The notes under the pieces were generated by a model. The model was not told where the DNA came from. It worked only from the letters and a program-made list of their open reading frames with translations, and searched no databases. DNA of 33,189 bases from Betaproteobacteria bacterium (GTDB lineage Bacteria > Pseudomonadota > Gammaproteobacteria > Burkholderiales > Rhodocyclaceae): NCBI GenBank assembly GCA_009776435.1, contig WRNU01000006.1, forward strand, positions 1 to 33,189. The letters are read 5' to 3'. Position numbers and translations under genes: made by a program. Of the stretch, positions 1,635-10,477 are shown piece after piece; the stretch's first letter is position 1, and the number at the start of each line of letters is the position of its first letter.

Positions 1635-2471
1635 ATGTTTGGCAACTGGCTGAAAACTTCCATCCTGATGGCAGGCATCGTTGCCCTGTTCGGCGTCATT
1701 GGCGGCGCGCTCGGTGGTCAGCAGGGTATGTTGCTCGCCCTCGTCCTGGGCGGCGCGATGAATCTGTGGGCCTACTGGTTCTCGGACAAGATGGTGCTGA
1801 AAATGTATCGGGCGCGTCAGGTGGATGCTGCCGCCTCGCCCTATCTCTATAACATGGTGAAAGATCTCGCCGATCGCGCCGATCTGCCCATGCCCAAGGT
1901 CTACATCATCGACGAAGAACAACCCAACGCCTTCGCCACGGGGCGCAACCCGGAGCATGCCGCAGTGGCCGCCACTTCCGGCATCATGCGCCTGCTCTCC
2001 GAACGGGAGTTGCGTGGAGTCATGGCGCACGAGCTTGCTCACGTCAAGCACAGGGACATCCTGATTTCCACCATCACCGCCACCATCGCGGGCGCGATTG
2101 CGACGCTGGCGCGATTCGGCATGCTCTTCGGCGGGCGCGACGGCAACAACCGTTCTCATCCGGCGGCTCAGATACTGGTCATGTTGCTTGCGCCGCTGGC
2201 GGCAATGCTGATCCAGATGGCCATCAGCCGCACGCGGGAATTCGGCGCGGATCGTGGCGGCGCGGAAATCTCCGGCGACCCCGGCGCGCTGGCCGATGCC
2301 CTGCACAAGATCGAGTCCTACGCCAAGGGAATTCCACTCCAGGCAGCCGAGGAACACCCGGCCACGGCGCAAATGATGATCATCAATCCCCTTCTGGGCG
2401 GCAACCTGCGCAGCTTGTTTTCAACCCACCCCGCCACGCAGGAGCGTATCAAGCGCCTGCGTGGAATGTGA
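1635..2471 (+). CDS. htpX: Membrane zinc metalloprotease HtpX
   Basis: An M48-family inner-membrane protease that takes part in quality control of membrane proteins. The zinc motif HELAH is at residues 132-136 ([11 protein letters not shown]), and a later glutamate in [10 protein letters not shown] is the likely third ligand. Two hydrophobic segments near the N-terminus (about 7-25 and 30-48) and one or two after the HExxH helix fit HtpX topology. The length of 278 residues is typical. An AAGGA sits at 1623-1627 before the ATG. The next gene starts at or just after this stop, so they are probably co-transcribed. Confidence 0.95.
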
Positions 2472-3690
2472 CGTGGTCCGCCTGCCCACGCAATTGCCTG
2501 TGCGTCTGATCCTGCTTGCTGCGGCGATTTTTTTCGTGCCGCTTCAAACGGCCTTTGCCGCCCCGCCCACTACGGCGTGGCGTGGCGCGGCGTTTTCCGG
2601 CGATCGCGCCGCGCTGGAAAAACTCGCCGCCGCCGGAGCGAACGCCGTGCGCGTCTATCACGAAAGCGACGCCTGGGTGCTCGATGAGGCGCGCAAACTC
2701 GGGATCGGCGTGCTCATGGGGCTGGATGTCGGGCTGCCGCGCCACGGTTTTCGCCTCGACGACCCCAAGGCCATCGCCGCGCAGGAAAACCGCATTCGCG
2801 CGTTCGTGCAACGCTACCGGAATCACCCCGCGCTGCTGGCCTGGGTCATCGGCAATGAAGTCGAACATGGCATGGACGATCCCTTGCCGTCGTGGCGCGA
2901 GATCAACCGCCTGGCAGGAGTGGTCAAGGCGCTCGACCCCGTTCACCCCACCGTAATGTCGGTCAACGACGGCGGGCGGCCATACCTGGAACAACTTGCC
3001 GGATGTTGCGCGCACGTCGATATGATTGGGATCAATCTCTACGCGGGTGCGGCATTTGGTCTGGACGCGCGTATCCGTGCCGCTGGCATCGGCAAACCAT
3101 TGTTGATCACCGAACTCGGCCCGCTCGGACAATGGCAGGCCGGTCGCAAACCCTGGGGCGCGCCGGTCGAACTCACCAGCCGCGAGAAAGCGGCCTTTTT
3201 TCGCCGCGCATTGGCCGAGTTGAGCAGGAACCCGCAAGTTCGCGGCGTTTTCGCCTTTCTGTGGGGCGTAAAGCAGGAACAGACTGCAACCTGGCACGGA
3301 CTGCTGCTTTCGGACAACACCCTCACCGAGATGACCGACGCGCTGACTGAGGCCTGGGGCCGTCCGGTTACACGCGCCGCGCCAGGCATCCTTGGCATCG
3401 GCATCTCCGCCGACGAATTCGCGCCGGGTGCGATTGTTTCGTCCACGATTGATGTACGCGGCGAGGCGCTCGTTACCGAATGGCGGGTGCGCAAGGAAGC
3501 AACCGATCTGCGCAAAGGGGGCGAGACCGAACCTTTACCGGAGGCGGTCGGCGTGGAAATGCTCGCTGCCGAAACATCCAGCGTCCGTTTCCGCGCCCCT
3601 TCGACTCCCGGCGCATATCGGCTGTTCATCACTGTACGCGATGGAAACGGCAAGGCGGCTACGGCCAACCTGCCGTTTCTGGTGAAGTGA
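2461..3690 (+). CDS. Secreted clan-A glycoside hydrolase-like protein
   Basis: A predicted exported TIM-barrel protein of the GH2/GH5 type; substrate unknown. From the GTG at 2461 it has 409 residues, but the in-frame GTG at 2473 is an equally good start and gives a cleaner signal peptide (hydrophobic core [11 protein letters not shown], likely cleavage after AFA). The barrel spans about 37-300. It carries Gly-Asn-Glu (Glu133, [10 protein letters not shown]), the usual acid/base, and Glu218 in [10 protein letters not shown], the usual nucleophile. The C-terminal ~100 residues look like a beta-sandwich (Ig-like) domain. The start overlaps or touches the htpX stop. The last ~38 codons recur twice downstream (4856 and 6706), which is very unusual. 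Function is inferred from the fold motifs only. Confidence 0.75.
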
Positions 3691-3694
3691 GATT
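3577..3694 (+). repeat. Direct repeat copy 1: the real 3' end of the glycosidase gene
   Basis: This is the functional end of the glycosidase gene (37 residues from SSVRFRAP to the stop, plus GATT). Near-identical copies in the same orientation lie at 4856-4972 and 6706-6823. It differs from copy 2 at about seven positions over the coding part. Directly after it, the stop codon of the small minus-strand gene starts at 3698. Confidence 0.93.
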
Positions 3695-3697
3695 GCG

Positions 3698-3916
3698 TTA
3701 CAGTTTCTCAAGCTCTTGTTTGGCGAGATTCTCAGCCCCTTGTGCACGGGAGCGGCGATGAGTTGTTTGCTGCTGTATCGGGGCGCGCGAATCCGACAGA
3801 GACGCTTCGGGAATGTCGGCAACAGGCACGCCTCCGGCTTCAATATCGTAAAAACCAGCTTCAATTTCCTGTCTGGCCATCTGTTCGCACCATTCCCTGG
3901 TGAGTTCGGTTCTCAT
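3698..3916 (-). CDS. Small unrecognised protein, third gene of the RHH-GNAT set
   Basis: A 72-residue polar protein I do not recognise (starts MRTELTREWCEQMARQ). The N-terminal half looks helical and acidic; the C-terminal half is rich in Gln, Arg and Ala. Its ATG overlaps the GNAT stop codon by the ATGA arrangement at 3913-3916, which implies translational coupling and argues that it is a real gene. Its stop lies 4 bp beyond repeat copy 1, so the cassette ends exactly where the glycosidase gene ends. It could be an accessory partner of the acetyltransferase. No signal peptide or membrane segment is visible. Confidence 0.6.
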   Translation of the reverse strand: MRTELTREWCEQMARQEIEAGFYDIEAGGVPVADIPEASLSDSRAPIQQQTTHRRSRAQGAENLAKQELEKL

Positions 3917-4551
3917 TTTTTGCTCCCCTTCGTGATGAAGGCATCCGCTTGTTTGGGCGTCATCTCAAGATAACGCAAACTCTGGTAACTGGCATCAGTG
4001 CCGAGGTCAACCATTCCACAATGACTCACATAAAAGGGGATGGATTGAGGCAGCGCATGCAGTCCAACGCGCCCTTTGAAACCCTCCCTTCGACTCAGTT
4101 CGATGGCCTCCCGCATCAACAGGCTGCCCACGCCGCAAAAACGCGGTTGTTCGCCCGGTTGATGATGACGCCGGTTCCAGGGCGCGTTCTCAAGGTACTC
4201 CACATAGACGATAGGTTTTTGGTATTGCGGCGCAAGGCGTGCCCTACGCAGGGTATCAAGAATCATCATCCCTTGGGTCATGCCTTGGCACACCACGCTG
4301 AAGCATGGATTTGCCAGCAAGCCCCGAAAGTGTTCAACCTTTCGCCGCCAGTCCCAATGGCTGCTTTGAGGAAACTGGTCACGTCCAAGGCCCGCTACGC
4401 GCATCCTCTCCATGATTGCCCTCAATGCGGGCATCCACTCGTTTTCCCAATCGGAAAGCTGCTGTTCGGCAATTGCGTCCCATAGTTCCGCTTCCACCAC
4501 TTGGCCGGTAGCGCCATCAAGGAGGTATGCACTGAAAGTCTTTGCGCTCAC
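3913..4551 (-). CDS. GNAT-family N-acetyltransferase, possible toxin
   Basis: A predicted acetyl-CoA-dependent acyltransferase of 212 residues. The acetyl-CoA-binding motif A is seen as RFCGVG (Arg137, Gly140, Gly142) followed by helix SLLMREAIEL, and Tyr174 in PFYVSHCG is placed like the general acid of many GNATs. The start is GTG at 4551, overlapping the stop of the upstream RHH gene (GTGA), so the two are coupled. An RHH regulator followed by a GNAT is the layout of TacAT/AtaRT-type toxin-antitoxin systems. However, this protein has an extra ~80-residue N-terminal part, and toxicity is only inferred. A 114-bp remnant of a second copy lies at 6580-6693. Confidence 0.75.
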   Translation of the reverse strand: MSAKTFSAYLLDGATGQVVEAELWDAIAEQQLSDWENEWMPALRAIMERMRVAGLGRDQFPQSSHWDWRRKVEHFRGLLANPCFSVVCQGMTQGMMILDTLRRARLAPQYQKPIVYVEYLENAPWNRRHHQPGEQPRFCGVGSLLMREAIELSRREGFKGRVGLHALPQSIPFYVSHCGMVDLGTDASYQSLRYLEMTPKQADAFITKGSKK

Positions 4552-4760
4552 AGTAGCACCACCTCTGATTTTGCTTTGGTCAGTTCGTTCTCGAAGAACA
4601 GCCTGTCGCCCCTCTCGGCACGGACTTCAACGGCTTGATAGAGGCGTAACGCCTGTCGCAACACCGTTGTTTTGCTGATGTCTTTCCTGGCGCACAATTC
4701 TTCCAGCACGCTCATCTCGGCATCGGTCAGGTTTAGTGTCATCGTTTTTCTGGCGGACAT
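4548..4760 (-). CDS. Ribbon-helix-helix (CopG-like) regulator, possible antitoxin
   Basis: A 70-residue protein with the RHH pattern: a short beta strand (KTMTLNLTDAE) followed by two helices (MSVLEELCARKD and KTTVLRQALRLYQAVE). The C-terminal tail is charged. The ATG at 4760 has an AGGAGG-like site at 4768-4772 on the minus strand; the longer frame from 4790 lacks one. It heads the coupled set RHH-GNAT-small protein and would be expected to bind its own promoter in the 95 bp before repeat copy 2. The DNA-binding role follows from the fold; the antitoxin role is inferred from the neighbour. Confidence 0.75.
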   Translation of the reverse strand: MSARKTMTLNLTDAEMSVLEELCARKDISKTTVLRQALRLYQAVEVRAERGDRLFFENELTKAKSEVVLL

Positions 4761-4772
4761 TGGTGTTCCTCC

Positions 4773-4855
4773 ATCACGGCAGGGACACATTGTACGTTAT
4801 TATCGGGCTACTACGAGGCTAATGAATAGCTATTTTATGGCTAAAAATACACCCT
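4773..4855 (-). promoter_or_regulatory. Control region of the RHH-GNAT set
   Basis: An AT-rich 83-bp stretch between the RHH start and repeat copy 2. It holds a perfect 10-bp palindrome AATAGCTATT (4825-4834) and several GGCTA/TAGCC words spaced about 10-20 bp apart, a pattern expected for RHH dimers binding side by side. GATAAT on the minus strand could be a -10 box. Boxes and operator are guesses from pattern only. Confidence 0.35.
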
Positions 4856-4972
4856 TCCAGCGTCCGCTTCCGCGCCCCTTCGACCCCCGGCGCATATCGC
4901 CTGTTCATCACTGTACGCGACGGCAGCGGCAAGGCGGCTACGGCCAATCTGCCGTTTCTGGTGAAGTGAGAT
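4856..4972 (+). repeat. Direct repeat copy 2 of the glycosidase gene end
   Basis: Repeats the last 37 codons plus stop of the glycosidase gene without the rest of the gene. Compared with copy 1, six of seven base changes are silent and one changes Asn to Ser (GNG to GSG). The four to five bases before it (ccctt) resemble those before copy 3 and not copy 1. It has no start codon context and cannot make the protein. It separates the RHH-GNAT set from the arsenic genes. Confidence 0.93.
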
Positions 4973-5057
4973 AGAACCGGGAACAGAACCGCTGTCCCCG
5001 GAACACCCAGCGTAGATGCATGAAGGCGGAAGCCGACAGATGCACTGAAAAATCTTT

Positions 5058-5109
5058 TTGCAGCGATAGCTCGCCCGCTTGATATTGTTCAACAGTTGTT
5101 GAATAATCA
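5058..5109 (+). promoter_or_regulatory. Putative arsR promoter and ArsR operator
   Basis: TTGCAG (5058-5063) and GATATT (5081-5086) are 17 bp apart and make a reasonable sigma-70 promoter. Overlapping the -10 end and the start point is a perfect inverted repeat TTCAAC-AGTT-GTTGAA (5088-5103), with further imperfect symmetry outward (ATATTG / ATAATC). ArsR/SmtB regulators bind such AT-flanked TTCAA/TTGAA palindromes. It lies 10 bp before the chosen arsR start, so binding would block transcription. Confidence 0.55.
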
Positions 5110-5113
5110 TCCA

Positions 5114-5470
5114 ATGGAAACAAAAACTGCCGCCATCATCTTTGAAGTCCTGACTTCCGAGGCTCGACTTTCCATTTTCCGGCTGCTGGTCAAATACGCG
5201 CCGGACGGACTGGTTGCCGGGGAGATTTCCCGGATGCTGGATATTCCGAAAACCAACCTTTCCTTTCACCTGAAAACCATTGTCCACGGCGGGCTTGCCA
5301 GCATGGAGCGAGAAGGCCGCAATACGCGGTACAAGGCCAACATCTCTCTGATGCTGGAGACCATCGCCTACTTGACGGCTGAATGCTGTTCCGGTAGCCA
5401 GAACTTTCGGGCGGCAGGTGGAGCCGTACCGGAATTTCCATCGACTTGCTGTGAAAGCAAGAACCCGTAA
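5114..5470 (+). CDS. arsR: ArsR/SmtB-family arsenic-responsive repressor
   Basis: A 118-residue winged-helix repressor. The HTH lies around residues 34-57 (AGEISRMLDIPKTNLSFHLK). The classical CVC metal site in the recognition helix is absent; instead there are vicinal cysteines Cys91-Cys92 (TAECCSG) and Cys112-Cys113 near the C-terminus. That layout resembles ArsR variants that bind arsenite through C-terminal cysteines. The ATG at 5114 follows the palindromic operator; TTG codons at 5096 and 5099 are possible but lie inside that operator. The gene is 18 bp upstream of arsM and surely shares its transcript. Release by As(III) is inferred from the cysteines and the partner. Confidence 0.85.
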   Translation: METKTAAIIFEVLTSEARLSIFRLLVKYAPDGLVAGEISRMLDIPKTNLSFHLKTIVHGGLASMEREGRNTRYKANISLMLETIAYLTAECCSGSQNFRAAGGAVPEFPSTCCESKNP

Positions 5471-5488
5471 TGAGAAGGAGGCATGACG

Positions 5489-6523
5489 ATGAGATTGTCT
5501 GAAAAAGAAAAAGAACTGGTTGCGATTGGTGCATCCATCGGCGGAAACTGCATTGCATGCCTTCAGTGGCATTACAGAAAATGCAAAGAACTTGGATTCA
5601 GCAATGACGAAATGCGCGAAGCGTTTGGTATTGCAAAAAAGGTCAAGGAAGTTCCAAACAACAAAATTTACGAAACGACGGAGGAATTGATCATGCAGAG
5701 CAAAACCACATCAAACGAACAAGTCAGAGAAACCGTGCGCGCCGGATACGCGGCCATTGCGACGGATGGCTCCTGCGGAGGCGGAGGCTGTTGTGGCCAA
5801 CCTGATCCCACTCGGCTGGCGAAAGCCGTAGGCTACGACGCAGAAAGCCTTGTCAATCTGCCAGAAGGCGCGAACATGGGGCTTTCCTGCGGAAACCCCG
5901 TTGCCATCGCGGCTTTAGAGGAAGGACAGGTTGTGCTCGACCTTGGCAGCGGCGGTGGTTTCGACGTGTTTCAGGCAGGCGTAAAGGTAAAAGCATCCGG
6001 GCGGGTCATCGGTGTGGACATGACCCCGGAGATGATTGCCAAGGCTCGCAAGAACCTTGAGCAGTACCGCCAGTGTCCCGGACTGGATAATGTAGAGTTT
6101 CGTCTTGGCGAAATCGAATATCTGCCCGTAGCGGACGCCAGCATCGACGTGGTGCTTTCCAATTGCGTCATCAATCTTTCGCCAGACAAACCTCGAGTCT
6201 GGCGTGAAATCTTCCGTGTGTTGAAACCGGGCGGCAAAGTATCTGTTTCCGATTTGGCTCTGCTGAAACCGCTTCCCGGCAACCTCCAGGAAATGACGGC
6301 GGCGCTGGTGGGCTGCGTGGCCGGGGCGGTTTTGGTGGAAGAAACCAGGGGCATGCTGGAAAAGGCGGGGTTCGCGTCCATCGTCCTGACGCCCAAGCCG
6401 GACTACGTGCGAAGCATGCAGGACTGGAACGATCCTCTATACAAGGAAATCGCGCAAACCCTGCCGCAAGGCGAAGAAATAGCCGATTACGTTGTTAGCC
6501 TGGACATTGAGGCCAGGAAATAG
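5489..6523 (+). CDS. arsM: Arsenite methyltransferase fused to an AhpD/CMD-like domain
   Basis: The core (from about residue 69) is an ArsM-type SAM-dependent As(III) methyltransferase, which makes methylated arsenicals. It has the SAM motif [11 protein letters not shown] and three cysteines in the usual arsenic-binding places: Cys134 (LSCGNP), Cys226 (SNCVIN) and Cys276 (VGCVAG). A Cys96/Cys101/Cys102 cluster lies before the core. Residues 1-65 match the carboxymuconolactone decarboxylase/AhpD pattern Glu-x11-Cys-x2-Cys-x3-His exactly (Glu9, Cys21, Cys24, His28), a thiol redox centre. The start is ATG 5489, since AAGGAGG at 5475-5481 is well spaced for it and too close to ATG 5483. An internal ATG at 5693, preceded by GGAGGAA, could also start the core alone. 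Confidence 0.9.
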
Positions 6524-6579
6524 GAAGCGTTTAACAACGAGAAACGCATGGAAGGAGAATTGCAATAAGATGGAAACAG

Positions 6580-6693
6580 CCTTTCGCCGCCAGTCCCAAT
6601 GGCTGCCTTGAGGAAACTGGTCACGTCCAGTGCCCGCTACGCGCATCCTCTCCATGATTGCTCTCAATGCGGGCATCCACTCGTTTTCACAAT
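6580..6693 (-). pseudogene. Remnant of a second GNAT gene
   Basis: Aligns without gaps to 4338-4451 of the GNAT gene with 5 differences in 114 bp, covering codons about 34-72 (WENEWMPALRAIMERM to WDWRR). Neither the beginning nor the end of the gene is present. The fragment stops 12 bp before repeat copy 3. It shows that a second RHH-GNAT cassette once lay here, in the same orientation and next to the same repeat. The rest of 6524-6905 holds only this remnant, repeat copy 3 and the leader of the next gene. Confidence 0.9.
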
Positions 6694-6705
6694 AACATGC
6701 ATCCT

Positions 6706-6823
6706 TCCAGCGTCCGCTTCCGCGCCCCTTCGACTCCCGGCGCGTATCGCCTGTTCATCACTGTACGCGACGGCAGCGACAAGGCGGCTACGGCCAACCT
6801 GCCGTTTCTGGTGAAGTGAGATT
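6706..6823 (+). repeat. Direct repeat copy 3 of the glycosidase gene end
   Basis: Third copy of the last 37 codons plus stop and ATT. It is closer to copy 2 than to copy 1, sharing the CTTCCAG left edge and the GS variant, with GSD instead of GSG. Like copy 2 it has no upstream gene body. It closes the arsenic segment. Confidence 0.93.
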
Positions 6824-6905
6824 GTGCCCGCCCGTTGCTTGCAGGCATTGCGCACCACGCCTCTCTGAGCCACAATGTAGCCCAGAGAATTTGGAGAATC
6901 ATCCC

Positions 6906-7172
6906 ATGACTGCAAACGCTGTTGTCCGCGCCCGCATCGACGAGCGCATCAAGGAAGAGGCTTCGACCGTGCTGGCGGCGATAGGGCTTACCGTGTCAGA
7001 TGCGTTTCGCATTATGTTGACTCGCATCGCAAATGAGAAGGCGCTGCCGTTTGAGCCGTTAATACCAAATGAAACCACTATTGCGGCCATGCGCGAAGCC
7101 CGCGCTGGCTGCGGCCTTAAAAGTTTCGATAGTGTTGAAGCATTGATGGCGGATCTGCATGCGGAGGATTGA
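6906..7172 (+). CDS. RelB/DinJ-family antitoxin without visible toxin
   Basis: An 88-residue protein of the RelB/DinJ type: an N-terminal RHH fold (ARIDERIKEEASTVLAAIGLTVSDAFRIMLTRIANEKALPF) followed by a helical tail with the usual PNETTIAAMREAR-like stretch. ATG 6906 has GGAGA at 6893-6897 and matches the family start; the longer frame runs back into repeat copy 3. Such genes normally sit directly before a RelE/YafQ toxin, but the next 110 bp contain no toxin and the following genes form another system. It may be an orphan regulator or the survivor of a lost toxin. Confidence 0.85.
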   Translation: MTANAVVRARIDERIKEEASTVLAAIGLTVSDAFRIMLTRIANEKALPFEPLIPNETTIAAMREARAGCGLKSFDSVEALMADLHAED

Positions 7173-7197
7173 ACCCACCGCCTTGCCGGTGAAGTCA

Positions 7198-7255
7198 CTG
7201 CCGCAAAATTTGCGGCAGCCTTTCAAAATCATGATGATTCTTGACGTTTCATGAT
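7198..7255 (+). promoter_or_regulatory. Palindrome and direct repeats before the Doc antitoxin gene
   Basis: A perfect inverted repeat CTGCCGCAAA-A-TTTGCGGCAG (7198-7218) follows the RelB-like gene but has no T-run, so it is a poor intrinsic terminator. Two TCATGAT words (7229-7235, 7249-7255) lie 20 bp apart, with TTGACG between them as a possible -35 box. This could be the autoregulatory site of the downstream antitoxin-toxin pair. Pattern evidence only. Confidence 0.35.
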
Positions 7256-7285
7256 AAGGTGAACCCTCAAAGAACGAGGTGTTCC

Positions 7286-7525
7286 ATGCCAACGACGGTC
7301 AAACAAAAAAAGGTCAAATTCGCTACCCAGGCAGACCCGGAAGTGCTGGTCGCGCTCCGCAAAATCGCCGGACAGGAAGGCAGGCAGTTGCAGGCGCTTG
7401 TGGATGAAGCATTGCGCGACTACATCGAACACAAGCAAGGCAAATCCCCCCGCCGACACGTCATGCAGGCCATGCATGACAGCATGACCCAGTACGACTC
7501 CCTGTACCGGGAGCTTTCCAGGTGA
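7286..7525 (+). CDS. Antitoxin partner of the Doc/Fic toxin
   Basis: A 79-residue protein with a basic N-terminus and an RHH-like helical region (PEVLVALRKIAGQEGRQLQALVDEALRDYIEHKQ), followed by a tail (MQAMHDSMTQYDSLYRELSR) that could wrap the toxin. ATG 7286 has GAGG at 7276-7279. Its TGA overlaps the GTG of the toxin gene, so the two are coupled as in type II toxin-antitoxin operons. The antitoxin role is inferred from position; the fold assignment is moderate. Confidence 0.75.
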   Translation: MPTTVKQKKVKFATQADPEVLVALRKIAGQEGRQLQALVDEALRDYIEHKQGKSPRRHVMQAMHDSMTQYDSLYRELSR

Positions 7526-7905
7526 GGGACTACCTGACCTCCACGGATATCCTGGCCCTGCATCAAATCGTTTTGCAACGCTACGGTGGCGCCCCCGGCC
7601 TTCGTGACATGGGGGCGGTGGAAGCGGCAGTGTTTCGCCCGCAATGCGGCTATTACAATAACATTATTGAAGAAGCTGCCGCTCTGCTGGAAAGCCTGCT
7701 CATCAACCATCCGTTTGTAGACGGCAACAAACGTGTTGCTTTTGCTGCTTGCGACGTTTTTTTGCGCATCAACGGCTGGCGGATTCGCGCCGAGCCGGAG
7801 TGGCTCTATCGGCGCATGATGGCCTGGATCGAGTTTCGGGGGGATCGCTTCGAGCACATCATCCAGGATCTCAAAAACTGCGCAGTGCAGCAGGATGGCG
7901 TGTGA
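7522..7905 (+). CDS. doc: Death-on-curing (Doc/Fic) family toxin
   Basis: A 127-residue Fic-fold protein. The active motif is HPFVDGNKR (residues 63-71, His63), and the Doc-type N-terminal part is visible (LTSTDILALHQIVLQRYGGAPGLRDMGAVEAAV). Doc proteins phosphorylate EF-Tu, whereas Fic proteins AMP-ylate. Doc usually has DANKR; the Gly-Asn-Lys-Arg here is nearer the Fic consensus, so the reaction is uncertain. The start is GTG 7522, overlapping the antitoxin stop by 4 bp. The size fits the short stand-alone death-on-curing family. Confidence 0.88.
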   Translation: MRDYLTSTDILALHQIVLQRYGGAPGLRDMGAVEAAVFRPQCGYYNNIIEEAAALLESLLINHPFVDGNKRVAFAACDVFLRINGWRIRAEPEWLYRRMMAWIEFRGDRFEHIIQDLKNCAVQQDGV

Positions 7906-7920
7906 CCTCCAGGTTAATGG

Positions 7921-7948
7921 TGGGCGCGCTTCGCTTTGCCCATCCTAC
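7921..7948. repeat. Interspersed repeat fragment (GGTGGGC...GCCCATCC)
   Basis: A short imperfect hairpin just after doc, with sequence of the GTGGGC-GCGCTTCGCTT-TGCCCA kind that I recall as a common interspersed motif in proteobacterial genomes. Only one copy is seen in this window, so the assignment rests on recollection of the motif and its symmetry. Confidence 0.35.
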
Positions 7949-7959
7949 ACATGCTAAGG

Positions 7960-8086
7960 AACCTCTGAACAACCCTCCTGTCATTGCAGCGCGTAGCGAA
8001 GCGAAGTCGCAGAATCTACACACCGCTTGTCATCCTGCGACTTCGCGCAGGATGACAAGCGGTGGATGTGGAGTTGTTCAGAGGTT
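7960..8086. mobile_element. MITE-like element with 14-bp terminal inverted repeats
   Basis: A 127-bp non-coding unit bounded by perfect 14-bp inverted repeats, AACCTCTGAACAAC (7960-7973) and its complement (8073-8086). Inside are two mutually exclusive perfect hairpins: 8001-8012 with 8035-8046 (12 bp), and 8021-8039 with 8046-8064 (19 bp, loop of 6). No clear target duplication is seen at the edges and no transposase lies nearby, so it would be a non-autonomous element. It makes up most of the gene-free stretch 7906-8216. Confidence 0.7.
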
Positions 8087-8119
8087 ATCAAAACAAAATA
8101 TCGCAAAATCTATTTTTGC

Positions 8120-8158
8120 TGTTGAATGTATGCCATAATCACAGTCGACCATTCAACA
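8120..8158 (+). promoter_or_regulatory. Putative promoter with a 9-bp inverted repeat
   Basis: TGTTGAATG (8120-8128) and CATTCAACA (8150-8158) are perfect complements and flank an extended -10 element TGC-CATAAT (8131-8139). No good -35 box is seen, as is allowed for extended -10 promoters. A repressor or activator bound to the arms would span the promoter of the repeat-protein gene 60 bp downstream. Confidence 0.45.
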
Positions 8159-8216
8159 TGTGTTTTATGGTTAACAGTGTGGCATTCATTAATTCGTTTC
8201 GTTGTTAGGAGGTTTT

Positions 8217-8675
8217 ATGGGCATTTTGAGCGACTTTTTCAATCCGTTCAGTTTCTTCAACCCGTGGACGCCGCCCCTCCCGATACCGAGCCCCATCCCG
8301 GTTCCGGTTCCGCCTCTCTTCATTCCGGTTCCGTTTGAGAAGGGCTACATCGACCCTGACCCTACCCCGGTTTTGACGAGGGTTCCGGTTCCGTTTGAGA
8401 AGGGCTACATTGACCCTGACCCTACCCCGGTTTTGACGAGGGTTCCGATAGCGAAGGGCAACACCGACACTGTCCCCACACCGACGGAGAAAACTGGCCG
8501 TGATGTCCTTTTTTCAACAAAGGAAATCATCAACACAGTGAAGGACTACTTCGACCCTGTCTCCACCCCGACGGAGAAAATTGGCCGGGATGCCCTTTTT
8601 TCAACAAAGGAAATAGCTTCCGGTGACATGCTGAATCTTGTCGGGGTTCAACTAGATTTACCCGATTTCGGCTGA
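8217..8675 (+). CDS. Unrecognised proline-rich tandem-repeat protein
   Basis: A 152-residue protein of no family I recognise. It has four sections: an aromatic/Pro N-terminus (DFFNPFSFFNPWTPPLP), a PxPxP stretch, two almost identical 20-residue repeats (VPVPFEKGYIDPDPTPVLTR-like; DNA copies 8323-8382 and 8383-8442 differ at one base), and two 29-residue-spaced repeats containing TPTEKxGRDxLFSTKEI (87-bp period, 8481 and 8568). The end is LVGVQLDLPDFG. There is no signal peptide, membrane segment or cysteine. ATG 8217 has AGGAGG at 8207-8212. A promoter palindrome precedes it and a strong terminator follows, which supports a real single-gene transcript. Confidence 0.7.
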   Translation: MGILSDFFNPFSFFNPWTPPLPIPSPIPVPVPPLFIPVPFEKGYIDPDPTPVLTRVPVPFEKGYIDPDPTPVLTRVPIAKGNTDTVPTPTEKTGRDVLFSTKEIINTVKDYFDPVSTPTEKIGRDALFSTKEIASGDMLNLVGVQLDLPDFG

Positions 8676-8725
8676 TGATTCAGCGTTTATGCTGATCGCG
8701 CGTAGATCATGTAAACCTGCCGAGA

Positions 8726-8760
8726 AGAGCAACTCGCTTGGGCGAGTTGCTCTTTCTTTT
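8726..8760 (+). terminator. Rho-independent terminator of the repeat-protein gene
   Basis: A perfect 12-bp stem, AGAGCAACTCGC (8726-8737) and its complement (8742-8753), with a TTGG loop is followed by TTTCTTTT. It lies 50 bp after the repeat-protein gene. The T-run is only on the plus-strand side, so it serves that gene and not leuA, which ends just beyond on the other strand. Confidence 0.9.
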
Positions 8761-8779
8761 GACAGTGATCGTTTCTATT

Positions 8780-10477
8780 TTACCCTTGCGATCTTTGCGC
8801 GCTTATCCGCCAAAGCCGATTAACCCCGCTCACCAATGCGCGGATCGAAGCCGTAACGATGTTCTCATCTATCCCCGCGCCATAGCATTCGCCGCCGTTT
8901 CCATTTCCATTCACCCCCGTGAGTTCGAGAAACGCGCAGGCGCGGGCATCACCCCCATCTCGGCTGGCGGAGATCGACTGCTCTTCAAAACTACGCACCC
9001 GCACGGAGAGCCCCGCACCGCGCAGGGCGTGCACCGCAGCATCGATCGGGCCGTTGCCTCTGCCGACAAGCACATGGCGGCAGCCTTCGATTTCGACGGT
9101 AAGTTCAATACCCTGCGCATCACCCTCTTCACGCAGGTGATGCCCGACGTAGCGCACCGGCGAACACGGATCGAGATATGTCCGGGAAAAAAGCTGCCAG
9201 ATCGCTTCGGCGCTCATCTCTCCGCCCGCTTCGGTTTCCTTCTGCACTTCGCGCGAGAACTCCACCTGAAGCCGCCGTGGCATGGCAATGCCGTAGCGGG
9301 TTTGCAGCAACCAGGCGATACCCCCCTTGCCGGACTGGCTGTTGACCCGGATGACCGAGTCGTAGGTTCGCCCGATGTCGGCAGGGTCGATAATCAAATA
9401 AGGCAGCGTCCAGGGCGCATCGGAACGTTGCGCCGCAAATCCCTTCCTGATCGCGTCCTGGTGCGAACCGGAAAAGGCGGTAAACACGAGATCGCCCGCG
9501 TAAGGATGGCGGGGGTGAATCGGTAGCCCCGTACATTGCTCGAAAGTCCGCGCCACACCGCTGATGTCCGAAAAATCCAGGCCGGGAGAAACGCCCTGGG
9601 TGTAGAGATTGAGCGCCAGGATGGCGAGATCGACATTGCCCGTGCGCTCGCCGTTGCCGAACAGACAGCCCTCGATGCGATCCGCTCCGGCCATGAGGCC
9701 CAGTTCGGCGGCGGCCACTCCCGTGCCGCGATCATTGTGCGGATGAAGCGAAAGCACGATGCTGTCGCGCCGGGCGAGATGACGGTGCATCCATTCGATC
9801 TGGTCGGCGTAGTGATTGGGAGTCGCCATTTCGACGGTAGCCGGCAGATTGATGATGACCTTGTCGTCCGGACGCGCGCCCCACGCCTCCGTCACCGCGT
9901 CGCACACCGCGCAGGCGAATTCCAGTTCCGTGCCGGAAAATGTCTCCGGGCTGTATTCGAGCACGATCTCCGTATCGGTCATGGTCCCAGCCAATCGGCG
10001 AATGTGGGAAACCGCCGAAACGGCAAGCTCGATGATTTCATCCGGTTTCATGCCGAACACGATTTCGCGGAACGTGGGCGAAGTGGCGTTGTAGACATGG
10101 ACAATGGCCCTGCGCGCACCTTTGAGGGCCTCCAGGGTGCGTGCAATGATGTCCTCACGCGCCTGGGTAAGCACCTCGATGGTGACATCGGGCGGAATGT
10201 GCCCGCCTTCAACGAGATGCCGCACGAAATCGAACTCGGTCTGCGAGGCGGCAGGAAAACCGACCTCGATTTCCTTGAAACCGATCTCGCACAGAACACG
10301 GAACAGGCGCATCTTGCGTTCCACGTCCATCGGCTCGAACAACGCCTGATTGCCGTCACGCAGATCAGTGCTCATCCAGATCGGAGGGCGGGTGATCACA
10401 CGATCAGGCCATTGCCGCTCATCGGGACGAATGGGCTGAAAAGGACGGTACTTGGAGGCGGGGTTGGAAAGCATCAT
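8780..10477 (-). CDS. leuA: 2-isopropylmalate synthase
   Basis: Catalyses the first committed step of leucine synthesis, condensing acetyl-CoA with 2-oxoisovalerate. The 565-residue protein is of the longer LeuA type that starts [11 protein letters not shown]-like. The HMGL-like barrel carries [11 protein letters not shown] (36-46), the metal motif HPHNDRGTG (His245, His247) and GNGERTGN (274-281). The C-terminal allosteric (leucine-sensing) domain runs from about 430 and includes [13 protein letters not shown]. Two ATGs are adjacent (10477 and 10474), with AAAAGGA at 10488-10494. It is transcribed away from an Lrp-type regulator that may control it. A plus-strand frame across it (9536-10495) is a shadow. 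Confidence 0.97.

Follow-up and report, generated by a model that had tools for sequence, protein, structure and literature searches.

Is the open reading frame (ORF) at positions 8217-8675 a gene and, if so, what kind of protein does it encode and how did it arise? The window, by which we mean the whole 33,189-nt stretch of DNA analysed, forms a single contig in a draft assembly of 230 contigs with 91% completeness and 6.8% contamination. On its forward strand, the ORF runs from an ATG to a TGA and would encode 152 residues; a Shine-Dalgarno sequence, AGGAGG (8207-8212, forward strand), lies 4 nt 5′ of the start codon. Both the protein and the AGGAGG site are present as a preliminary description of the locus had claimed, as is the strong terminator it reported: a Rho-independent hairpin on the same strand at 8725-8754 has a perfect 13-bp stem, a 4-nt loop and a T-rich tail (z = -5.2 relative to shuffles). 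This hairpin is placed between the ORF and the convergent leuA gene (8780-10477, reverse strand), and may serve both. Based on the ribosome-binding site, the terminator and the in-frame repeats described below, we consider it likely that 8217-8675 is a real gene.

Composition was examined codon position by codon position. GC content at the first, second and third positions is 0.54, 0.44 and 0.63, matching that of neighbouring accessory genes; like the Shine-Dalgarno sequence and the terminator, this pattern is an indirect sign of translation, which we consider likely. When the segment was shuffled 2000 times with its dinucleotides preserved, an ATG ORF this long appeared 22 times (1.1%), and the synonymous codon score was matched by 0.4% of shuffles. 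That score, -0.056 in frame, is below those of most neighbouring genes and no better than that of one antisense frame (-0.064).

The region upstream of the ORF offers less. The preliminary description had assigned the gene a promoter palindrome, and a 9+9-nt inverted repeat, a putative operator, does exist (TGTTGAATG at 8120-8128 and CATTCAACA at 8150-8158). However, shuffling this AT-rich stretch 3000 times produced such a pair in 120 cases (4%), so that the repeat is not above chance, and a sigma-70 scan found no sigma-70-like promoter upstream of the ORF; an extended -10-like sequence, TGCCATAAT (8131-8139), is visible by eye only. The proposed promoter role is not supported beyond chance. 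We also considered 8095-8123 as a promoter shared with relatives and rejected it, since the 28-bp match (93%) falls inside an unrelated coding sequence. In the two sister genomes concerned (L068 and L069, near position 1500) the match is the start of an apparently PilJ-like sensor gene, and it is probably due to chance or to a gene fragment or remnant. Of the self-contained unit originally described, the ribosome-binding site and the terminator hold, and so does the isolated position, with a repeat element on one side and convergent leuA on the other, but the palindrome as a promoter is not above chance.

The most informative feature of the ORF is its internal structure. An N-terminal segment (residues 1-36, MGILSDFFNPFSFFNPWTPPLPIPSPIPVPVPPLFI; 8217-8324, forward strand), comprising a hydrophobic and aromatic head followed by a PxP-rich tract, precedes four in-frame copies of a degenerate unit of about 20 residues and a short acidic tail. 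Repeat finding placed the first two units, U1 (residues 37-56, PVPFEKGYIDPDPTPVLTRV; 8325-8384) and U2 (residues 57-76; 8385-8444), on the forward strand, with GYIDPDPTPVLTR as the repeat peptide. They are near-identical: in the register 8323-8382/8383-8442, 59 of 60 bases are alike, and the sole difference, ATC/ATT, is synonymous. The two 20-residue repeats are confirmed, and their near-identity supports the recent expansion that the preliminary description suggested. The other two units, also on the forward strand, are longer. U3 (residues 77-105, PIAKGNTDTVPTPTEKTGRDVLFSTKEII; 8445-8531) is a diverged copy of U1/U2, 63% identical to U1, with a 9-residue extension, and U4 (residues 106-134, NTVKDYFDPVSTPTEKIGRDALFSTKEIA; 8532-8618) is 86% identical to U3 in DNA. 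This second pair, seen directly as 8450-8527/8537-8614 at a spacing of 87 nt (29 codons), carries the extra DxLFSTKEI in both members, and its differences are mostly non-synonymous. Both periods, 60 nt and 87 nt, are multiples of three and all copies share one frame, as in coding amino acid tandem repeats (aaTR).

The 29-residue pair had been taken as a second type of repeat. The pair is there, but several observations speak against a separate type. A repeat search located a third copy of the 60-bp unit in register at 8437-8496 (63% identical), and Tandem Repeats Finder reported 2.8 copies of that unit. Aligned without gaps to the downstream part, U1 agrees with it at up to 32 positions over 45 nt, as compared with a maximum of 26 in 300 shuffles. 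Translated, the four units share K-[GD]-[YN]-[ITF]-D-[PT]-x-[PS]-T-P, or in degenerate form K-G/D-x-x-D-x-x-x-TP. On these alignments, we regard U1-U4 as one family with a single ancestor and not as two independent repeat types. Since all four units are related, the gene would record at least three nested duplications of different age. Ordered by identity alone, the split between U1/U2 and U3/U4 would be the oldest, that between U3 and U4 intermediate, and that between U1 and U2 very recent. Growth would have proceeded by successive slipped-strand or unequal tandem duplications.

The predicted product has a mass of 16.7 kDa, a pI of 4.4 and 17.8% proline, with its acidic tail following U4. AlphaFold, run on the single sequence, gave one short helix and no fold (mean pLDDT 54, pTM 0.12); low confidence of this kind is expected for any orphan, so the model lends disorder only slight support. 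Residues 1-36 lack lysine and arginine and are interrupted by prolines. Since this segment has no positively charged residue, it does not look by inspection like an ordinary signal peptide, and inspection of the termini revealed no lipobox, LPXTG motif or other anchor or sorting signal. The protein would be cytoplasmic and, judging from composition, an intrinsically disordered polymer; its hydrophobic N-terminus might anchor it to a membrane or to a partner, and its repeated acidic and proline-containing linear motifs could bind a partner multivalently. A role as a multivalent short-motif binder is a guess from composition.

We searched widely for homologues. The product had no match in Pfam, PHROGs or PADLOC, nothing near the cut-off in NCBIfam, no match in phages or plasmids, and no locus among viral contigs (IMG/VR) or genome contigs. 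Hence, no relative was found in phage, plasmid or viral collections. Whole-genome searches covered its own genome, 100 relatives and 399 genomes each from the family, the order and the phylum, the last three being samples with one genome per species; they returned the gene itself and weak matches only. A search of 369 genomes of the class with the C-terminal part likewise gave nothing beyond the gene itself and weak matches, and DNA from 8087 to 8780 had no counterpart in 21 other genomes of the genus beyond short, probably chance matches. Weak matches at the family level (E 0.01-0.1), the order level and the phylum level proved, where inspected, to fall in proline-rich linkers or unrelated genes, or to come from antisense or stop-containing frames. 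Two matches in the same genome, on C14 (E 0.24) and C151 (E 0.47), are not paralogues; the former was read and judged to be chance. A match to the Retron Se72 effector in NCBIfam (E 0.19, 18 residues) is far below the cut-off, and a proline-rich gene adjoining leuA in one relative is not an orthologue, its product being a lipoprotein that resembles c-type cytochromes and has a proline linker. The only PDB entries with E < 0.001 are designed armadillo repeat proteins (for example 5mfm), matching residues 115-138. We dismissed these as an artefact in which many 2-3-bit matches to identical repeats are summed, each with an i-Evalue of about 1000. Profile and sequence searches across families, structures, contigs and genomes thus bear out the earlier statement that the protein belongs to no known family. 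That description had also named a combination that would refute its claim, namely no expression and no homologue with a kept frame in any relative; the second half holds in the genomes searched. As expected of an ORFan, no homologue was found outside the species in the sequences searched, which were sampled at one genome per species.

The surroundings of the ORF are variable. A segment of about 5 kb (3694-8780), bordered on the left by a glycosidase-like gene (2461-3690) and on the right by leuA, is absent or replaced in genomes of the same genus. In one of these (G010) the glycosidase-like gene ends about 200 bp from leuA; in two others (G020 and G009) small genes between them look, by eye, like toxin-antitoxin genes. 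Altogether different genes follow leuA in genomes of the genus. This comparison indicates that 3694-8780 is accessory DNA occupying a variable site, with the ORF at its leuA edge, as had been proposed. To the left of the ORF are toxin-antitoxin-like genes (RelB, and ribbon-helix-helix plus Doc). The latter two (7241-7905) are a ribbon-helix-helix antitoxin-like gene and a death-on-curing (Doc/Fic) toxin gene with a 4-nt overlap. Between doc and the ORF lies an imperfect palindrome of about 130 bp (7956-8086), a MITE/REP-like element with terminal AACCTCTGAACAAC and GTTGTTCAGAGGTT, an inner 19-bp perfect hairpin and about 40 copies, 80-92% identical, scattered through the genome. Similarity among nearly all copies inspected ends near 7955-7958 and at 8086; the element is independent of the ORF. 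It separates the ORF from doc, and by position the ORF lies outside the toxin-antitoxin operon. Matches to Rfam microRNAs stem from this palindrome and are far below gathering scores.

Elsewhere in the segment, the 129-nt 3′ end of the glycosidase-like gene is present in three direct copies (3565-3693, 4844-4972 and 6694-6822; 87-95%). They flank a 1.28-kb piece with an acetyltransferase-like and a ribbon-helix-helix-like gene and a 1.85-kb piece with arsR-like and arsM-like genes. The arrangement resembles the insertion of cassettes at the gene's 3′ end, or their duplication together with it; no integrase gene was seen in the segment holding these repeats. In a further direct repeat of 117 nt (4335-4451/6577-6693; 95%), a portion of the acetyltransferase-like gene recurs just after the arsM-like gene.

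On balance, we favour the interpretation that 8217-8675 is a species-restricted ORFan of recent origin and that its product is a disordered repeat protein rich in proline. In a rival account, a mobile element or phage would have carried the ORF, as a rapidly evolving "moron" or cassette gene, into a hotspot lying between leuA and the glycosidase-like gene, and its relatives would reside in elements that have not been sampled. The toxin-antitoxin and ars genes, the 129-nt direct repeats and the MITE-like element within 3694-8780, and the absence or replacement of this segment in the genus, are consistent with such an origin; but phages, plasmids, IMG/VR contigs and PHROGs yielded no match, the ORF itself has no bounding direct repeat, and we saw no integrase gene next to it. 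We regard this origin as possible, yet rather unlikely. Less likely again is that the ORF is not a functional protein gene, being instead an intergenic minisatellite-like repeat that is open by chance, or a decaying pseudogene. The lack of homologues in the collections searched, the 1.1% of shuffles with an equally long ATG ORF, the undetected promoter and the weak codon usage would all fit. Against them stand a correctly placed AGGAGG and a terminator on the same strand, two repeat periods that are both multiples of three, the codon-position GC pattern, and a synonymous score reached by so few shuffles.

Proline-rich repeats are a typical trait of surface stalks, and the preliminary description hinted at a surface location; the protein might then be a fast-evolving secreted or surface protein of this length-variable kind. 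The hydrophobic N-terminus would suit that role, but a first 36 residues free of lysine and arginine and broken by prolines, with no anchor by inspection and no Pfam domain, make it highly improbable. We also doubt strongly a more ambitious version of the ORFan interpretation, in which a newborn functional gene has its repeat number actively tuned and provides a multivalent, disordered scaffold of a new type from within a toxin-antitoxin and resistance hotspot.

How does the favoured ORFan compare with known systems? ORFans are common in bacteria (PMC2447361, PMC6372840), and 8217-8675 resembles them in being short, without a detectable homologue and in a variable accessory region. A tandem-repeat build is not a defining trait of ORFans, and the ORF still shows its history of duplication. 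It is likewise known that tandem repeats in coding sequence can give rise to disordered regions (PMC9879509; PMC7230257). The aaTR proteins of Borg elements (PMC9879509) share with the ORF in-frame, near-perfect tandem repeats, a probably disordered product and a fast-evolving region; the likeness is one of features, and we claim no sequence relationship. In Borg elements such repeats are pervasive, enriched in A and frequently located in extracellular or membrane proteins, whereas the ORF is a single gene on a bacterial chromosome with 2+2 units. Since ORFans are common and disordered coding repeats are known, the kind of gene is familiar and the sequence of 8217-8675 is new. As it stands, the ORF is one more ORFan; if translated, it would be a compact bacterial example in which the three nested duplications of one unit that enlarged the gene can still be read in its DNA, and it would help in asking how orphan genes originate.
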